A DNA stretch of 64,000 nt from positions 1 to 64,000 of the forward strand of contig NZ_RCBY01000010.1 of the NCBI RefSeq assembly GCF_003838195.1, given 5' to 3'. The notes below the pieces were generated by a model. The model had not been told where the DNA came from. It searched no databases and was given only the letters and a program-made list of their open reading frames with translations. The translations under genes were made by a program, and so were the position numbers. Source of the stretch: Okeania hirsuta (GTDB lineage: Bacteria > Cyanobacteriota > Cyanobacteriia > Cyanobacteriales > Microcoleaceae). This document shows positions 15,301 through 63,196 of the stretch, one piece after another; within the stretch, counting starts at the first letter, position 1, and every line of letters begins with the position of its first letter.

Positions 15301-16132
15301 CTATGCAAGAAAATGAACGCCACTGATATCACTGCTATTCAATTCACTAAAAAATTCTTCAAATGTACCTGATGTTGAAATACCCAGGGTATTTGGGTTA
15401 AAGATAAATACATCTTCGTCTTGACCCGATACATCAGTTACAGAAAAGCTACCGGTTGTGGACAGAAGTAGTTGCTCTCCATTAATACCAATAGCATCAA
15501 TGTCTTCACTATGCCCGGTAAGATCTACATCACTACCGTCGAATTCAATAGACCAAGCTCCAGTATCAGGATTGAAACGTAGTATATCTTCATCTTTACC
15601 GCTAATTCCTGAGACATTAAAGCTCCCTCGAGTGGAAATTAGAAGGTCTTTAGTAAGAGGATCGACACTCAGACCATCAATATCTTCACCACCTTCAGTT
15701 AAGCCAACATCTGAACCATCGAAGTATAGCTCGAAAGAACCGCTACTGTTGTCTCCAGATGATGTGGGAGTAAACTTAACAATGTCAGAGTCATCTACTT
15801 GGATGCCATTTATATTTTTAGGTCTCTCAAAAGAAAACAGAATTTCATTATCGTCAATCACTTCAAAAGCATCAATCCTAAAACCTTTAAGACCAACATC
15901 TGAACCATCGAAGAATTTACTGAAACTCTGGTCAGTTAGATTATACTCAACGATGTCTTCTCGTCTGAAACTAACTCCACCTAGAGTTTGGTTGTTTTTT
16001 AGGCTAAACAGTAAAGATTCAGTTTCGGGAGTTGGTGGTTGAGGTTCGGGAGTTGGTGGTTGAGGTTCGGGAGTTGGTGGAGGATGAGGTGTTAGCGGTG
16101 CGGGTGGTAAGGTTGGCGTTGGAGGTAGATTG
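15301..16132 (-). pseudogene. Detached C-terminal part of beta-helix surface protein
   Basis: On the minus strand a frame enters from a Pro-rich linker (PPTPEPQPP units, then ESLLFSLKNN) and runs to a stop at 15301. It contains about three copies of a ~70-residue module with FDGSDVGL, EDIDGLSVDP, ISTRGSFNVSG and DEDILRFNP. There is no start codon until an internal ATG at 15861, partway through the first module. It is in the wrong frame relative to the upstream beta-helix gene (16210-17835), which shares the same linker. I infer one ancestral gene of about 840 codons split by small indels in the linker. The module is not a family I can name. Confidence 0.6.
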
Positions 16133-16209
16133 GTGGTTGAGGTTCGGGAGTTGGTGGTTGAGGTTCGGGTTGATGGAGGATGAGGTTCGGGTTGATGGAG
16201 GATGAGGTG

Positions 16210-17835
16210 TTAGCGGTGCGGGTGGTAAGGTTGGCGTTGGAGGTAGGTTGGTGGTTGAGGTTCGGGAGTTGGTGGTTGAGGTTCGGGAGTTGGTGGTTGA
16301 GGTTCGGGAGTTGGTGGTTGAGGTTCGGGAGTTGGTGGTTGAGGTTCGGGAGTTGGTGGTTGAGGTTCGGGAGTTGGTGGTTGAGGTTCGGGAGCTGGTG
16401 GCTGAGGTTCCTGTACTTCATAAGCACCGATATCTACCGTACCATTGACAATGCGATCGAATTCCTGCCCCCGTTGGTCGAACGTTAATCCTGTTGCACC
16501 TCCGTTATCCCCGGCATCAATAGCAATACTATCAGAGAGTAAGGCGTGGGTTTCAGTAGAACCACCGTTATTTTGTAGGGGACCCAAACCAGGATCGCCT
16601 GATAAAAATGGATTATAATGGCCGTCTTCAATCAAATTATTGACGTTAGTGTCGATCTTGCTAGTCTTCAGCACGGCATCGCGACCAGTGCTGTTGGCAA
16701 TGATGGTATTGGTGAGGTTTGTCCTCCCTTCACTAAATAAACCACCTCCACGTCCATCAGCAGAATTACCATAAATGGTAGAATTGGTAATTGTTGCGAT
16801 ACCAGAACTACTGAAAATACCTCCACCATCAGCGCTATTACCCGCAGTACTGTTATAAGAAATAGTAGAGTTAGCAACGGTTAAATTGCCATTTTTACTG
16901 TAAACTCCGCCACCATCTGTTCGATCTAGGCCAACTGCTGAATTACCTGAGACAGTTGAATTGGTAATTTCTAGATCGCCATTACGGCTAAAAATACCGC
17001 CCCCATCAGCAGATCCGAACTCACTGGTCATTAATGTCGAATTATTAGCGATGGTTGAGTTTGCGATTGTCGTATTACCATGGCGGTTATAAATACCACC
17101 ACCGCTACCCAGGGCAGTTCCTTCAAGAGTATTGCCAGAGATAGTCGAATTAGTAACCGTTATGTCACTATACCAACCATAAATCCCACCACCGTCACTC
17201 AGACCACCAGTGACTTTATTACCGGAAATAGTGCTATCAACAACGTTGAGCTGACCATTGCGGATGGATACACCACCACCGTCAGGGTCGTCACCAAAAT
17301 CATTTTGAAATTCGGGGTTTCCGTCGGCTAATTGTCCCTTGACTTCATTATTAATAATATCTGTGTTGACGATTTTCAAATAACCACCATAACTATTGAT
17401 TCCACCACCATCAATAGATCTGCCTATGTCGTATTGCCCCTCAATGCCAGTTGAGGTATTGCCGGAGATGATACTGTCTTGAACGGTCAGATTCTCGGAG
17501 GTGAAAATTCCACCACCACCACCTATTGGATTGCCTCCAGTAATGGTTAAGCCATCTATGAATACATCAATCAGATCGTTATTGCCGTTATCGATATTGA
17601 AGACCCGGAAGCCATTCTGTTGTGCATCCACTGTCAGCAGATTTGCACCTAATCCATTGATGGTGAGAGGATTGGTGATCGATAATTCTCCACTGGTCAG
17701 TCCGATGGTCATTCCTGTGAGGGAACTATCAAAGGTAATGGTATCGGCATCCGGCGTAGCATTTGCCATCGCAATAGCATCCCGCAGACTGCCATTACCC
17801 GCATCCATGGTGTTGGTTACATTAAAAGTTGCCAT
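16210..17835 (-). CDS. Right-handed beta-helix (CSLREA-type) surface protein
   Basis: Protein of 541 aa. The N-terminus contains GSLRDAI, the signature of proteins that begin with a CSLREA-like segment. Residues ~60-400 carry repeating coils such as STISGN and NSTIYGNSADG with GGGIF turns, typical of parallel beta-helix secreted or adhesin-like proteins. A conserved end piece follows (DSIAIDAGDNGGATG, DQRGQEFDRIVNGTVDIGAYE). Then comes a tail of about seven PEPQPPT/A units ending in an abrupt out-of-frame sequence (YLQRQPYHPHR). The real product probably continued into the modules at 15301-16132. No classical signal peptide is seen, which suggests export by a non-Sec route (inference). The start at 17835 has AGGA about 15 bases upstream. 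Confidence 0.75.
   Translation of the reverse strand: MATFNVTNTMDAGNGSLRDAIAMANATPDADTITFDSSLTGMTIGLTSGELSITNPLTINGLGANLLTVDAQQNGFRVFNIDNGNNDLIDVFIDGLTITGGNPIGGGGGIFTSENLTVQDSIISGNTSTGIEGQYDIGRSIDGGGINSYGGYLKIVNTDIINNEVKGQLADGNPEFQNDFGDDPDGGGVSIRNGQLNVVDSTISGNKVTGGLSDGGGIYGWYSDITVTNSTISGNTLEGTALGSGGGIYNRHGNTTIANSTIANNSTLMTSEFGSADGGGIFSRNGDLEITNSTVSGNSAVGLDRTDGGGVYSKNGNLTVANSTISYNSTAGNSADGGGIFSSSGIATITNSTIYGNSADGRGGGLFSEGRTNLTNTIIANSTGRDAVLKTSKIDTNVNNLIEDGHYNPFLSGDPGLGPLQNNGGSTETHALLSDSIAIDAGDNGGATGLTFDQRGQEFDRIVNGTVDIGAYEVQEPQPPAPEPQPPTPEPQPPTPEPQPPTPEPQPPTPEPQPPTPEPQPPTPEPQPPTYLQRQPYHPHR
16257..16405 (-). repeat. 21-bp tandem repeat coding PEPQPPT
   Basis: About seven copies of a 21-bp unit (plus-strand GGTTCGGGAGTTGGTGGTTGA) encode PEPQPPT on the minus strand. 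Two further clusters of the same unit lie at 16025-16080 and 16130-16170, separated by a duplicated GCGGTGCGGGTGGTAAGG-containing block. Since 21 bp is a multiple of three, unit-number change keeps frame; the frame break comes from the spacer block. Confidence 0.9.
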
Positions 17836-24955: not shown

Positions 24956-25120
24956 TCACCAACACCGCTAAATTAAATCCGGTAATCAGAGGATGGGTAA
25001 CTACTACTCAACTCTAGTCAGTAAGGAGACATTTAAAAAACTAATAAATTAAATCCGGTAATCAGAGGATGGGTAACTACTACTCAACTCTAGTCAGTAA
25101 GGAGACATTTAAAAAACTAA
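24956..25120 (+). pseudogene. Group II intron maturase C-terminal scrap, duplicated
   Basis: The plus strand reads QITNTAKLNPVIRGW, then after a one-base loss NYYSTLVSKETFKKL. LNPVIRGWxNYY...VSKxTFxKLD is the conserved maturase/X-domain region of group II intron reverse transcriptases. The block from AAATTAAATCCGG to AAAAAACTAA is repeated exactly in tandem with a 76-bp period (24969-25044 and 25045-25120), and both copies carry the same deletion, so the deletion came before the duplication. No RT domain or intron RNA domain V was recognised nearby. Confidence 0.75.
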
Positions 25121-55339: not shown

Positions 55340-56441
55340 ACCTCTACTCTATGACCTCCGAATAGAGAAGTTTTCAAAGTACCATTCTTTTGTCAGGAAG
55401 GAGGGTAGGGTAGTTAGGTTTTTGATTGGCAAATCACTTACCTATTTGAGGGGTAAATTTTCTAGATTAAGTATAGTGCTATAGTTTTTTTCCTAACTGT
55501 GGAAAGACTCTTCTGTGAATAGAAAGCTTTTCAAACCACTATTATCTTTTCGGGAAGGGAGTAACAGCAGTAAGATTTTGGAATTTGCAAATCATTTGTC
55601 TATTTGAGGGATAAATTTTCTAGATTAAGTATAGTGCTATAGTTTTTTTCCTAACTGTGGAAAGACTCTTCTGTGAATAGAAAGCTTTTCAAACCACTAT
55701 TATCTTTTCGGGAAGGGAGTAACAGCAGTAAGATTTTGGAATTTGCAAATCATTTGTCTATTTGAGGGATAAATTTTCTAGATTAAGTATAGTGCTATAG
55801 TTTTTTTCCTAACTGTGGAAAGACTCTTCTGTGAATAGAAAGCTTTTCAAACCACTATTATCTTTTCGGGAAGGGAGTAACAGCAGTAAGATTTTGGAAT
55901 TTGCAAATCATTTGTCTATTTGAGGGATAAATTTTCTAGATTAAGTATAGTGCTATAGTTTTTTTCCTAACTGTGGAAAGACTCTTCTGTGAATAGAAAG
56001 CTTTTCAAACCACTATTATCTTTTCGGGAAGGGAGTAACAGCAGTAAGATTTTGGAATTTGCAAATCATTTGTCTATTTGAGGGATAAATTTTCTAGATT
56101 AAGTATAGTGCTATAGTTTTTTTCCTAACTGTGGAAAGACTCTTCTGTGAATAGAAAGCTTTTCAAACCACTATTATCTTTTCGGGAAGGGAGTAACAGC
56201 AGTAAGATTTTGGAATTTGCAAATCATTTACCTATTTGAGGGATAAATTTTCTAGATTAAGTATAGTGCTATAGTTTTTTCCCTAACTTTGGAAAGACTC
56301 TTCTAGCAATAGAGAGATTTTCAAAGCACTATTATCTTTTCGGGAAGGAAGCAACAGGAGTGAGATTTGGGAATTTGCAAATCATCTACCTATTTTCGGG
56401 GTAAATTTTCTACATAAGTATAGTGCTATAGTTTTTTCCTG
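55340..56441. repeat. 158-bp tandem repeat array with palindromes in each unit
   Basis: GTATAGTGCTATAG recurs at 55471, 55629, 55787, 55945, 56103, 56261 (period 158) and 56418 (157). Units starting 55471 to 56103 are nearly identical; outer units are degenerate. Each central unit has TATAG-TG-CTATA, AAAGCTTT and ATTTGCAAAT, all short inverted repeats, plus the conserved CTTTTCGGGAAGGGAGTAAC. As 158 is not a multiple of three and stops occur in all frames, it does not code for a repeat protein. It fills the space between the 55082 frame and the NUDIX gene. Confidence 0.95.
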
Positions 56442-56458
56442 CCGTACATATTATTTTT

Positions 56459-56872
56459 CTACCTACCAAATTTAGGCCATAACACCTGGACAAAAAAATC
56501 ATTCAAAATCTTGTTACATTGAAATGCCAGTTGATTTTGATCTAATTCATCTTTAGTAAAATAAGCTAAACGTTGACCTTCATTAAGTTGAATTTGCTTT
56601 AAATCTAAGTCTATTTGCTTCCAGAAAACGTAATGTTCTCTATCATAAATATTGTACTTTTGAAAAAAGTTAATATCTGTTAATTCAATTTCGATTTCTT
56701 CCCTTATTTCTCTGCATATACATTGTTCAGGAAGTTCACCATTTTCAATAAATCCTCCTAATAAATTCCAAGTATTAGGAAAAGGAATAGAATCTTTATT
56801 ATCTCTAAGCACGAGTAAAATTTGCTGAGAACTGTTAAACAAAATAATTACACAACCTTGTAATTTGTTCAT
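56459..56872 (-). CDS. NUDIX hydrolase
   Basis: 137 aa. The NUDIX box G-x5-E-x7-REUxEExGU is visible: Gly40, Glu46, then REIREEI at 54-60 (GGFIENGELPEQ leads into it). These Glu residues bind the metals that hydrolyse a nucleoside diphosphate linked to another group. The N-terminal CVIILFNSSQQILLVLRDN strand pair is typical of small MutT/ADPR-type members. Substrate cannot be told from sequence. The downstream side of this gene is the 158-bp array. Confidence 0.9.
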   Translation of the reverse strand: MNKLQGCVIILFNSSQQILLVLRDNKDSIPFPNTWNLLGGFIENGELPEQCICREIREEIEIELTDINFFQKYNIYDREHYVFWKQIDLDLKQIQLNEGQRLAYFTKDELDQNQLAFQCNKILNDFFVQVLWPKFGR

Positions 56873-57151
56873 ATTTTTCTTCTATTAGAATATATTTATT
56901 TGGGATATTATATAGATGGGATAAATATAGCGATCGCCTAATATCAAATCTGGTAACATGGGTGTAATTATATCTTATAGGGACAAATGGTTATCCGCCC
57001 TGACAGGGGTAATAATGGAATATAATTGAGAAATATTTGGCAATGATTGAAAATAGAACATTTTTTTATACATACAGCATATTCCAAATATATGAAGTAA
57101 AGAGATTAAAAATTGAATGTTATCAGTGCGGGCATCTTGCCAGCTTCGGGA

Positions 57152-57890
57152 GTAGATAAACAGAATTTTTACCCTGAAAATAAAAAGTCAAACTATTACC
57201 CACCCCAAACAAATAATTATCGGCAGTTGTCTCTAGAAAATTCTCCATATCAGTTAACTTATTACTGTGAAGAATCAGATTTTGCCGAAGTAGATAAACA
57301 GAATTTTTACCCTGAAAATAAAAAGTCAAACTATTACCCACCCCAAACAAATAATTATCGGCAGTTGTCTCTAGAAAATTCTCCATATCAGTTAACTTAT
57401 TACTGTGAAGAATCAGATTTTGCCGAAGTAGATAAACAGAATTTTTACCCTGAAAATAAAAAGTCAAACTATTACCCACCCCAAACAAATAATTATCGGC
57501 AGTTGTCTCTAGAAAATTCTCCATATCAGTTAACTTATTACTGTGAAGAATCAGATTTTGCCGAAGTAGATAAACAGAATTTTTACCCTGAAAATAAAAA
57601 GTCAAACTATTACCCACCCCAAACAAATAATTATCGGCAGTTGTCTCTAGAAAATTCTCCATATCAGTTAACTTATTACTGTGAAGAATCAGATTTTGCC
57701 GAAGTAGATAAACAGAATTTTTACCCTGAAAATAAAAAGTCAAACTATTACCCACCCCAAACAAATAATTATCGGCAGTTGTCTCTAGAAAATTCTCCAT
57801 ATCAGTTAACTTATTACTGTGAAGAATCAGATTTTGCCGAAGTAGATAAACAGAATTTTTACCCTGAAGATAAAAAGTAAAACTATTACC
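57152..57890 (-). repeat. 138-bp tandem array copied from the neighbouring gene
   Basis: Five identical 138-bp units start at 57152, 57290, 57428, 57566 and 57704, with a sixth partial unit at 57842. Both strands are open through the array (46 codons per unit). On the minus strand the unit reads GKNSVYLLRQNLILHSNKLT and ENFLETTADNYLFGV. This matches GKNSVYLLLENMTIDGDELT and LLDTTANNYFPGD at the C-terminus of the membrane protein encoded just upstream on that strand (58161-60323). So the sense direction is minus and the array is an amplified, diverged copy of that gene's 3' end. Translation of either open strand is not assumed. Confidence 0.9.
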
Positions 57891-57904
57891 CACCCCAGGG
57901 AAAT

Positions 57905-58132
57905 AATTAGGGCTTGCTGATAAAATATAAAAGCACTGATAGATAAAGGTTTTAGCCTTTTTAGGTTGAAAAAAATGCCTGGTTTTCAGTTGAAAACCCT
58001 CAAAACTTTAGCATAAAATGCAGAATAATAGCAGAAAAATCACTCTTACAAATATATCCAACTATCTCCTAACTACTCTCTACTCCCCCACTCATCTACT
58101 CCTGAAAAAGACTTTTTCAGCAAACCCTAATT
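57905..58132. repeat. MITE-like element J, copy 2, inserted in the array
   Basis: Left end AATTAGGGCTTGCTGAT, right end TTTTTCAGCAAACCCTAATT. It splits a copy of the 138-bp unit. The sequence left of it matches the middle of a unit (CCCCAGGGAAATAATTA) and the sequence right of it continues the unit (TAATTATCGGCGGTTATCTC). TAATTA on both sides could be a target duplication, though it is palindromic and so ambiguous. Confidence 0.85.
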
Positions 58133-58160
58133 ATCGGCGGTTATCTCCAGAAAATTTTCT

Positions 58161-60323
58161 CTAGTCATCAACAATAAGATTATTGATTACCCATCCACAT
58201 TTATCCGTTAATTCATCCCCATCAATAGTCATATTTTCCAAAAGCAAATAAACCGAATTTTTACCAGCGAGTGAAAAATTCAAGTCAGACAAATCTCCAG
58301 GAAAATAATTATTGGCAGTTGTATCAAGCAAATTTCCTTGCTCATCTAAAGAAGAAAACGCAAGAGACAAACCATCACATTCTTGATTCAGAAAATTCAG
58401 TTTACCAGTAATTTTTACTGATTCGGATATTTGCCCTAAATAGAGAAAATATTTAGAGGTTTGTTTAGTAGTATCCGAGGGGTCTGTCATTAATTTATAA
58501 CCATTTTCAGAAATTTGAGTAACTGCCGAATAATTATAAGTAATATAAGGAGATTGATTTAAACTCATCCAGTCTAACTGTCTACCTGGACGTTGAGGAA
58601 TTTGTTTTTGTACTGCTGATAAAGTTTGTACAGCAGTCGCTACAGAAGTAGGGCGAAATCTTTGATAAAAACTGACAGTAATTCCACCATCTAAGATAAA
58701 TTCTTCTGGCAATTTTCGGAAATCTTGAGCAATGGGAAAATTTTGAGTAAAAGCATCATAGACAAACTTAACTAAATCTTGTTGCCCTGGTTTTAAGACT
58801 TGTTCATCAGTTAATAATACTTTCTGAAATGGGTGAGCAATAACTATATATTGTGCTTCTAATAATTCTGGCAATGGGTAAGTATCGCGGGTGTCAATAT
58901 GTGGTTTACTTATTGCTCTTAAATTCGGCCAAGTTTCAGGATTAATTATCCGATTAGCGTTTCTAATAATATTGGCATTAAAAAGATTTGAGGAAGCAGC
59001 TACATATACTAATTCTCGATTTTTGGCTAATTTACTTAGATAATCGCTCAGACGTAAAACTTCATCATAGTCGGAACGAATTAATGGAGAAAAATTAGTG
59101 GCAAATAATGGTCGTAGAGAATGATGAAATTTGCCAATTGTAGTTATGCCAAGGAAAAAATTTCCAAGTAACAATATTCCCGTGAGACTTAAAATGATTA
59201 ATCTAGTTTTGTCTGGAAAAATATTAATGGTCGTCCAGATAAATGAAGCTAATCCTAAAACTATTATTGGCGTAAAATGTAGAGAGTAATGAATATTGCC
59301 ATAACGGAGTAAAATCAACCATTCAGCTAAAGAAAAAAATCCGAATAATAAGAGAAAAATAGTAGTGGATGGAATTAAATATTTTGTCAGAACACCAACA
59401 GAAAATCCTGTGGCAACTAATAGTAAAGTTATTAATCCATAAAAACAGGCATAACGCCAGAAAATGTCAGGTATTGATAAACTCCAAGCAGCATAAAGAG
59501 TTCGATAATTTTCTGTCAAAGAACTTTGGATAAAACCCCAAGCAAAAATTGATATAGTCAGGAAACTACTGAGAGAAATCAGACTAATTTTAATGGCGCT
59601 TTCTAAAAGTCTTTTCCAGGAATTATTGACAGAATTGAAAGTAGTCAAAAAGTTAATCATAGTTTGGCAACTAACAGCAGCAAGAAAAGCTATGGCGCTA
59701 TAAGCAAAATGTCTCCTTAAAACAATAGATATGCCCAAACATAATCCAATGACAGGAATTTGCCACCAAGCAGTCAATCTAATATTTTGTAAGTAAATTA
59801 AAATCGCCAATAAAATAAATAAAGTCGCTCCAATATCAGGATATCCTCTTAAACTCGGACTCCAAGTCATAGGTATTAATAAAGCGATCGCTACTGTTGA
59901 CCAAAATACCCACCGAGAAGGAACTGGAATTAATTTTGTCGCGATAGAACCGACCAGCAAACTAAATGGTAATAAATAGACCAGATTAATACTCAAAATA
60001 TAAACAATTCTTTGATTACCAAACAGATAAAGAAATGGAATTAACGGCAGCACAACCAAATAATTTTTCTGTTGAGATAAAGAACCTAAAATATCATCAA
60101 TAGCTCTTTGAGGTGATGCTCGAAATAAATTTGTTAAATTATTTGCTGCGTTCTGATATCCCACAAAGTCCCACCAATAAATTGTATGTTCATGAGATAT
60201 ATATATTGATGTTATGACAGTAATTATCAAAACTACAATTAAAAAAATAATGCTATTAATCAGAAAGCTAGACTGTGAATTAAGTTTAGTATTTAATAAT
60301 TTGAAAAAAGAGTGATTGTTCAT
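58161..60323 (-). CDS. Polytopic membrane protein, GT39-like, with C-terminal module
   Basis: 720 aa. About eleven membrane helices fill residues 20-400. The first extracytoplasmic loop has YWWDFVGYQ, with an Asp in the position typical of lipid-linked-sugar GT-C transferases (PMT/ArnT-like), and RGYPDIGA and RRHFAYS lie in later loops. Residues ~410-720 are soluble and presumably periplasmic. The end (SSLDEQGNLLDTTANNYFPG, SLAGKNSVYLL) is a beta-rich module, copied in the array downstream. The family call is tentative: it could be a glycosyltransferase or another polytopic protein. An RmlA-like gene and a GT2 gene follow on the other side, suggesting a surface polysaccharide neighbourhood. 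Confidence 0.65.
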   Translation of the reverse strand: MNNHSFFKLLNTKLNSQSSFLINSIIFLIVVLIITVITSIYISHEHTIYWWDFVGYQNAANNLTNLFRASPQRAIDDILGSLSQQKNYLVVLPLIPFLYLFGNQRIVYILSINLVYLLPFSLLVGSIATKLIPVPSRWVFWSTVAIALLIPMTWSPSLRGYPDIGATLFILLAILIYLQNIRLTAWWQIPVIGLCLGISIVLRRHFAYSAIAFLAAVSCQTMINFLTTFNSVNNSWKRLLESAIKISLISLSSFLTISIFAWGFIQSSLTENYRTLYAAWSLSIPDIFWRYACFYGLITLLLVATGFSVGVLTKYLIPSTTIFLLLFGFFSLAEWLILLRYGNIHYSLHFTPIIVLGLASFIWTTINIFPDKTRLIILSLTGILLLGNFFLGITTIGKFHHSLRPLFATNFSPLIRSDYDEVLRLSDYLSKLAKNRELVYVAASSNLFNANIIRNANRIINPETWPNLRAISKPHIDTRDTYPLPELLEAQYIVIAHPFQKVLLTDEQVLKPGQQDLVKFVYDAFTQNFPIAQDFRKLPEEFILDGGITVSFYQRFRPTSVATAVQTLSAVQKQIPQRPGRQLDWMSLNQSPYITYNYSAVTQISENGYKLMTDPSDTTKQTSKYFLYLGQISESVKITGKLNFLNQECDGLSLAFSSLDEQGNLLDTTANNYFPGDLSDLNFSLAGKNSVYLLLENMTIDGDELTDKCGWVINNLIVDD

Positions 60324-60420: not shown

Positions 60421-60529
60421 CTGTGGTCTTGCCATATAATTCTCATATAATTATATTGAGCTAATATCAAACTTTTCTGAATTTTACCGTCTTATTATAT
60501 CTTTGGAAATATCATTTACAGAAAAAAAT

Positions 60530-61500
60530 TCTTATCCTGTGTGTCACTTTGCCAAAATAGACAGAATTAATTAATGGATAATTTTCCCTGATGAGCGGTA
60601 ATTTTTTTCCCTTTTCAGTAGTGGAGCTGTTTGGCAAAATTTCACAGAATTTTCTCGCAGAAAAATCTCTTATCTTGTTTGTCACTTGACCAAAATAGCG
60701 AGAATTAATTAATGGCAAATTTTCCCTAATCACCGAGAAATTTTTTCCCCTCTTCAGTAGTAGAGATTTTGGGCAAAATTTTACAGAATTTTCTCGCAGA
60801 AAAATCTCTTATCTTGTTTGTCACTTGACCAAAATAGCGAGAATTAATTAATGGCAAATTTTCCCTGATGAGGGAGAAATTAGTCTCCTCTTCAGTAGTG
60901 GAGATTTTTGGCAAAATTTTACAGAATTTCCCCAGAAAAAATCTCTGACACTGTGTGTCATGTTCTGAAAATAGCGAGAATTAATTAATGGCAAATTTTC
61001 CCTGATGAGGGAGAAATTTTTTGCCCTCTTCAGTAGTAAAGATTTTGGGCAAAATTTCACAGAATTTCCCCAGAAAAAATCTCTGACACTGTGTGTCATG
61101 TTCTGAAAATAACGATAATTAATTAATGGCAAATTTTCCCTAATCACCCAGAAATTAGTCTCTTTTTCAGTAGTGAAGATTTTGGGCAAAATTTCACAGA
61201 ATTTCCCCAGAAAAAATCTCTGACCCTGTTTGTCATGTTCTGAAAATGGAGAAATTTGTCTCTTGTTCAGTAGTGGAGCTTTTTGGCAAAATTTCAGAGA
61301 ATTTTCTCACAGGAAAAATCTCTTATCCTATTTGTCACTTTCTCAAAATAGTCAGAATTAATTGATGGATAATTTTCTCTGATGAGGGAGAAATTTGTCT
61401 TCTCTTGAGTAGTAAAGATTTTTGACAAAATTTTACAGAATTTCTCCCAGAAAAAATCTCTTATCCTATTTATCACTTGACAAAAATAGTCACAATTAAT
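60530..61500 (-). repeat. Second array of ~138-bp units upstream of the membrane protein gene
   Basis: TGTCAC/TGTCAT landmarks fall at 60542, 60680, 60819, 60956, 61094, 61231, 61333 and 61471 (as TATCAC), giving spacing of 137-139 bp except one 102-bp unit. Units are 80-95% alike by eye, less uniform than the 57 kb array. The minus strand carries the 46-residue motif NSRYFGQVTNKIRDFSARKF and LPKISTTEE in shifting frames. The same period as the 57 kb array and a faint match (FG...F.(A/G)(R/K)) suggest a common origin, but this is not proven. Confidence 0.88.
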
Positions 61501-61657
61501 TGACTAATAGTTTTTTCTTCTTGCTTCTTCCTTTCTCCCTCTTGCTTCTTCCTTCTTCCCTCTTGCTTCTTCCTTCTTCCTTCTTATGCTAAAGTGAGAA
61601 AAAATTCAGCCCTAAGAACAAAAACTACAACAAAAATCCGCAATTGGAAGTATTGAC

Positions 61658-62858: not shown

Positions 62859-62989
62859 TGGACTAACACGCCTAAAATGGTGCAATAGTAGGGGCGGGTT
62901 CCGCGTTAAGTTAATGGTGTCACCTACGACTAAGTAAACCCGCCCCCGCCCCAATAATCTAATGCATAAAATTAGATGTGTCGGTCCAG
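62859..62989. repeat. MITE-like element B, inverted partner of 8888
   Basis: Reverse complement of 8888-9016 over its full length, with TGGACTAACACGCC and GTGTCGGTCCA ends. It abuts the hairpin repeats at 62990. Confidence 0.75.
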
Positions 62990-63139
62990 TAGGGTGCGTT
63001 AGACGGCTAAAATTTAGACTCGGAACGGTATTTAGAAATCCATCGTAACGCACCATTTTAGTCGGTCTAGTAGGGTGCGTTAGACGGCTAAAATTTAGAC
63101 TCGGAACGGTATTTAGAAATCCATCGTAACGCACCATTT
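62990..63139. repeat. Two tandem palindromic units (GGTGCGTTA...TAACGCACC)
   Basis: Two copies with an 81-bp period start GGGTGCGTTAGACGG and end CCATCGTAACGCACCATTTT, each with inverted ends. The spacer TCGGTC(C/T)AGTAGGG repeats the end of the preceding element. A 95-codon minus-strand frame here is translation of the repeat only. Confidence 0.85.
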
Positions 63140-63196
63140 TAGTTGTTTTAGCTTCACTTAACTGAACTTTTACCCCACCCCGAAGGAGAAACTAAT

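Follow-up and report, generated by a model that had tools for sequence, protein, structure and literature searches.

A 138-bp tandem array of Okeania hirsuta derived from the 3' end of a predicted membrane glycosyltransferase gene

Parent gene, inserted element and array

The window, i.e. the whole analysed stretch of 64,000 nucleotides from Okeania hirsuta, contains a minus-strand gene whose stop codon is followed by a unit remnant, an inserted element and a tandem array. Four further genomes (G001 to G004) were placed in the genus of the window, with G003 being Okeania SIO2C9. The features of the locus are as follows:

57123-57151, no strand: right side of the array, where it stops abruptly; the gene-type copy and right flank known from G002, G003 and G004 are missing
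57151-57909, minus strand: tandem array, period 138 bp, 5.5 copies, 99% matches
57152-57841, minus strand: five 138-bp units, 100% identical, 46 codons each, open in the frame homologous to the gene
57842-57909, minus strand: partial sixth unit of 68 bp, 63/68 (92.6%) identical to the other units
57910-58127, no strand: MITE-like insertion of 218 bp with inverted ends and repeat copies elsewhere in the genome
58128-58159, minus strand: remnant of the first downstream unit, directly 3' of the stop codon, 28/32 identical to a unit
58161-58202, minus strand: tail element of 13 codons, KCGWVINNLIVDD, plus stop, with the closing strand E711-719; absent from the window units
58203-58334, minus strand: source module in the gene, 44 codons (NLLDTT...ELTD, residues 664-707), aligned with the unit without gaps
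58161-60323, minus strand: parent gene (ORF, 720 aa), predicted GT-C-type membrane glycosyltransferase with a C-terminal beta-sandwich at residues ~600-720

Sequence searches with the parent protein gave no match in Pfam, NCBIfam or PDB, and the nearest named relatives of the gene were Okeania MAGs. The AlphaFold2 model (mean pLDDT of 85.4, pTM of 0.81) showed a multi-helix membrane fold of the GT-C kind (STT3/ArnT/Emb-like). With Foldseek, nine chains were obtained at E ≤ 0.001, all of GT-C type (E = 3.3e-7 to 4.6e-4), originating from oligosaccharyltransferase complexes of yeast and human, Emb proteins, ArnT, PglB and AftA. Their TM-scores to the query were modest (0.27-0.43). Based on this model, the parent gene probably encodes a GT-C membrane glycosyltransferase. 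As a class, GT-C glycosyltransferases comprise a catalytic acidic residue in the first luminal loop. Lower Foldseek matches included beta-sandwiches over ~120-150 columns, among them CBM22 and CBM16 domains and also IBDV VP2, as well as BtuJ1 over ~175 columns; these matches would fit the C-terminal beta-sandwich of the predicted protein. In the model, the source module forms the strands E665-673, E680-686 and E692-699, and a unit spans three of the last four strands of the terminal beta-sandwich. The 13-codon tail, which holds the closing strand (711-719), is missing from the window units, so that one unit does not represent a whole domain. This tail is retained in the gene-type copies of G002, G003 and G004.

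The array consists of head-to-tail units of constant length, as is characteristic of a minisatellite, and its sequence contains no N. In agreement with the preliminary description of this DNA, the complete identity of the five whole units supports a recent expansion or homogenisation of the array. Open reading frames of 256 codons on the minus strand and of 255 codons on the plus strand were found in the array; open frames of ~255 codons on both strands are to be expected from the repetition of one stop-free unit.

The MITE-like element is bordered by the ends GGGTTTGCTGA and TCAGCAAGCCC, which are inverted (10/11) and flanked by TAATTA on both sides. Whole or partial matches with E ≤ 1e-22 were found at no fewer than 39 other places in the same genome, a count that represents a lower bound, as 40 of 490 first-look candidates were scored. 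An insertion with nearly identical ends occupies the same site in the congener G004 (locus L039). The preliminary description had regarded gene end and array as continuous. While the match directly after the stop codon proved to be real (E = 5.5e-4), the element now intervenes between the two. Since it splits what appears to be a single unit, the insertion probably interrupted a formerly continuous stretch from gene end to array.

Origin and history of the units

An alignment of the units with the end of the gene, which had been proposed beforehand as a check, showed significant similarity. Compared to the last 57 codons of the gene, the unit could be aligned without gaps over 44 codons with 22/44 identical residues and 89/132 identical bases, whereas none of 100,000 codon shuffles reached 89 identical bases (maximum 67). 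The gaps given by BLAST at the DNA level are an effect of the alignment and do not occur in the codon alignment. The proposed resemblance of the units to the C-terminal module was thereby borne out, and the motifs GKNSVYLL and TTANNYFPG (TTADNYLFG in the gene) are present as claimed. In the own genome (8.79 Mb, 716 contigs), the only matches of the unit with E < 0.001 outside the array were the gene end (2.4e-5) and the stretch after the stop codon. A search of 61 genomes of the family, including the own one, with two array units as query resulted in matches in 12 genomes, located at orthologous gene ends or in downstream copies; one marginal further match was found on contig 73 of G001 (E = 0.006). 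The sequence comparisons confirmed that the array descends from the 3' end of the parent gene and that this origin is old.

In its arrangement, with copies immediately following the 3' end of a gene, the locus resembles a diversity-generating retroelement, in which the gene end would be the variable repeat and the second copy downstream, here the array, the template repeat. In contrast to such elements, the array showed no bias towards template adenines: 10 of the 43 mismatches lie at an A of the unit, with A comprising 38 of the 132 unit bases. In addition, the 11 RVT_1 matches of the genome all lie on contigs other than that of the window (C2), so no reverse transcriptase accompanies the array on the same contig. 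This explanation was rejected and its probability is regarded as negligible.

Copies of the gene tail after the stop codon were found in three of the four congeners. G002, G003 and G004 carry gene-type copies, consisting of the 44-codon module, the 13-codon tail and a stop codon, as well as tail-less units, while G001 showed no tail copies within the 1.1 kb from the gene to the end of the contig. All five genes of the genus have the same length (720-722 aa) and the same tail, and none of them contains an extra C-terminal module. In Okeania SIO2F4 (L043, G021), which belongs to a different genus in the taxonomy used, a partial unit of ~75 bp follows directly after the stop codon. Since L043 comprises 262 bases after the gene, the absence of an array in this strain rests on the search of the whole genome G021, in which the gene end was the only match.

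A tree was calculated from 108 bases of 21 sequences (units and gene ends), with copy_G002 (due to an indel), the two partial G003 copies and gene_G011 left out. In this tree, the tail-less units of the three congeners and of the window formed one clade with a support of 100. This clade grouped with the genes of sister lineages (support 90) and not with the genes of the own strains. Unit 1 of the window is identical to the gene of Okeania SIO3I5 at 84/108 positions compared to 69/108 for its own gene. From this pattern we infer that the tail-less units probably predate the radiation of the genus; more rapid evolution of the gene end within the genus could contribute to it. The form with several 138-bp units was found in no strain other than that of the window, and TRF detected a 227-bp unit present twice in L041 and no tandem copies at the array site in L039, L040 and L045. 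These numbers refer to draft assemblies from a small sample of five strains, in which unit numbers may be wrong.

Due to this draft state, the copy number, or the apparent exchange in the relatives described below, could also be an assembly artefact. The first copy that follows an N gap in L041 duplicates the gene end over exactly 127 bp. At the 100-N gaps of L041 (8246-8345) and L042 (9202, 10684, 12572 and 13273), the flanks overlap by exactly 127 bp, which resembles an assembler k-mer. Such exact overlaps are the signature of an assembler and can mimic a tandem duplication. The first G003 copy (part0) was discounted as a likely overlap of this kind and was excluded from the evidence. By contrast, N is absent from the window array and from the full copies of G003 (two), G004 and G002. 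These full copies diverge from the genes of their own strains by 6.3, 6.9, 6.9 and 9.8%, respectively, which exceeds what a collapsed overlap would leave. An artefact is therefore given a low probability.

Exchange between the gene end and its copies

Strain-specific states common to the gene and its copies, as expected for concerted evolution, were observed in G003. In four quartets, the gene and its own copy were grouped by 8, 9, 10 and 10 sites, compared to 2, 2, 3 and 3 sites grouping the copies across strains and one site each for the third pattern, and the grouping of the G003 gene with its copies reached a tree support of 93. For G002 and G004, two concerted sites stand against seven sites for orthology and none for the third pattern, which points weakly to gene/copy exchange in these strains. 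The copies of G002, G003 and G004 have an array-type junction in common at their left ends, so that the duplication seems to predate the states shared in G003.

The G003 gene comprises 34 strain-unique substitutions, of which 9 lie within the last 57 codons (binomial p = 0.00082, for one of five strains tested and with linked sites being counted). Six of these 9 changes are nonsynonymous, compared to 8 of the 25 changes found in the remaining 686 aligned codons. The other four strains showed 2-3 unique tail changes each without any excess (p of 0.1 to 0.7). All of these changes are unpolarised, so that some represent outgroup states kept by one strain. Six of the 9 strain-unique tail bases of G003 are found again in one or more of its own copies, with one of the six being also the usual outgroup base. 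The bases common to gene and copies, together with the excess of tail changes, indicate that gene and array do exchange sequence in SIO2C9. They suggest a transfer from the array to the gene, with the direction being unproven.

In the window strain, three unique tail changes were determined for the gene. Two of them occur in no copy, while the third is found in the copies of G004 and G002 and also in four outgroup genes and is at most a hint of transfer. Among the aligned rows, the combination of the codons CTT ATT near the stop codon is shared by the window gene and the G002 copy alone, the ATT base by itself being the state of several outgroup genes. A comparison of the tail changes with the copies gave no clear trace of the own array in the window gene. 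Since the window units are closer to the genes of sister lineages than to their own gene, exchange is not visible in this strain. The exchange that had been envisaged between gene and array was thus found in the sister species G003, and weakly in G002 and G004, but not in the window strain. The proposed search for gene variants with array-derived segments gave a candidate in the G003 tail and no clear case for the window gene.

The preliminary description had gone one step further and considered the array as a reservoir of cassettes, donating variant C-terminal modules by gene conversion and thereby changing the putative carbohydrate-binding end of the glycosyltransferase. This would agree with the exchange between gene end and copies (in G002 and G004 two sites), with the excess of unique changes in the last 57 codons of G003 (p = 0.0008, in one of five strains tested), and with the gapless in-frame alignment of unit and module. 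Against it, the five whole window units are identical, which means that one variant is stored with little diversity, a unit lacks the closing beta-strand, the five genes contain no extra module at lengths of 720-722 aa, and four of five strains showed no excess of tail changes. Known systems of silent cassettes differ in these respects. In pilE-pilS, an expressed gene exchanges sequence with silent partial copies. For vls, an expressed gene with contiguous silent partial copies that exchange sequence with it is described (PMC11499132). The locus is similar in combining an expressed gene with contiguous silent partial copies that could exchange with it. In contrast to both systems, the window units share 67% identity with the gene and do not differ from one another, so that, apart from the partial unit (63/68), no set of mutually different silent variants was found. 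Mosaic alleles of the expressed gene may be represented by the G003 tail changes common to gene and copies, again with unproven direction, and none was clear in the window strain. With identical units, no clear array trace in the window gene, and constant gene length and tail, the proposal of a cassette reservoir has little support and is considered unlikely.

A related possibility, for which we see little probability, is that the untranslated downstream copies serve as a template bank by which gene conversion would rewrite the last beta-strands at the putative carbohydrate-binding end of the glycosyltransferase. If so, the SIO2C9 gene would have taken up array mutations made under relaxed constraint, and the codons CTT ATT of the window gene would represent a second transfer.

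Constraint on the units and interpretation of the array

The comparison of the window units with the units of G004 and G002 resulted in dN/dS values of 1.65-2.57, based on few sites, while the chimeric G003 unit showed values of 0.48-0.89 compared to other units. Except for this chimeric unit, no consistent synonymous excess was found in the array units, and little indication of protein constraint was obtained. For the RNA, the array unit gave no fold signal (z of -1.21 and -0.84) and the array no match in Rfam.

These data bear on the question whether the array could itself be a gene or a functional RNA, i.e. encode a repeat protein of 46-aa modules (ORF of 256 codons) or act as a structured 3' UTR. 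The minus-strand frame is open throughout, and non-coding DNA of Trichodesmium is reported to be largely transcribed (PMC4649490). The plus strand is open to nearly the same extent, however, dN/dS between the units of the strains is mostly above 1, related copies are broken by a stop codon, a frame change or a MITE insertion, and no signal of RNA structure was determined. An expressed repeat protein was rejected due to the lack of a consistent synonymous excess, and a function of the array as gene or RNA is altogether very unlikely.

The array can with good probability be explained as a neutral minisatellite of the gene tail, which arose as a by-product of tandem duplication, and not as a dedicated switching device, and evolved partly in concert with its parent gene. 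Most likely it has no dedicated function, the neutrality being argued from the absence of signal. A partial duplicate after the stop codon would represent the ancestral state. Direct repeats flanking the gene terminus would then allow units to be added and deleted by unequal crossing-over or replication slippage, while gene conversion would spread sequence between the gene end and the gene-type copies. The array of the window strain would have kept only the tail-less kind, a MITE would have inserted at one end of the array while the other end was lost, and one 138-bp unit would recently have been amplified to five identical copies. The effect of the array on the gene would be an occasional accidental rewriting of its last 57 codons.

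Some observations count against this explanation. The 138-bp units keep their length and open frame in several strains and dN/dS of the chimeric unit is below 1, so that a coding constraint keeps a small probability. The excess of tail changes in G003 would also result from a selected exchange, which counts against the neutral reading, and the predominance of orthology sites over concerted sites (7 to 2) in G002 and G004 counts against the concerted one.

Compared to known systems, the window array shares with bacterial minisatellites or VNTR arrays the head-to-tail order, the recent identical copies and the absence of a strong coding or RNA signal. It differs from them in that its unit originates from the last module of the neighbouring gene and that such copies in a congener still exchange sequence with the gene. 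A partial tandem duplication with concerted evolution is resembled by the G003 copies, which are closer to the gene of their own strain than to the copies of other strains, but here the duplication is restricted to the last 57 codons, and the copies are apparently non-coding DNA located 3' of the stop codon. Among the literature matches listed, the titles and opening lines of the abstracts contained no account of this array or of a gene-tail array in Okeania or Trichodesmium.

As a neutral gene-tail minisatellite, the array would be an example of a long-unit tandem array born from a gene's own end within a repeat-rich cyanobacterial genome, with stages of the process found across related species. 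Apparently non-coding arrays would then not be inert, as they can exchange sequence with their gene of origin, and the cost or benefit of arrays adjacent to genes becomes testable.

Long tandem repeats are common in this genome background, with 45 arrays of a period of at least 60 bp in 834 kb (window and 39 further stretches). A survey of mechanical ORFs of at least 120 aa, which included the window and the array ORF and in which some matches represent overlapping ORFs or coding repeats, showed copies adjoining the own ORF for 15 of 447 3' ends compared to 14 of 441 5' ends, so that a general bias for 3' ends copied downstream was rejected. Among the 15 cases at 3' ends, only the window gene has at least four downstream copies of at least 60 bp, while one other ORF has at least six downstream copies of 25 bp.

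Further repeats were observed in the window. A second array of 138-bp units (60519-61503), which has no evident relation to the first one, fills the gap upstream of the parent gene; the same site comprises ~15 copies of 139 bp in G004, ~10 copies in G002 and a run of ~4.1 kb in G003. An Rfam match to RAGATH-25 at 60998-61049, in an array other than the one studied here, was below the threshold (22 bits compared to a cut-off of 49) and was taken as chance. A third array (55425-56437) with 6.4 copies of 158 bp lies directly after a NUDIX hydrolase gene (56459-56872, minus strand). Beside the same NUDIX gene, G004 carries a 156-bp version with ~10 copies and G002 none. The convergent ORFs at 15458-16042 (plus strand) and 16210-17835 (minus strand) share a region of 21/42-bp repeats (16024-16410) at their facing 3' ends, and near-perfect two-copy tandem duplications are located at 62980-63143 (81 bp) and 24969-25120 (76 bp).
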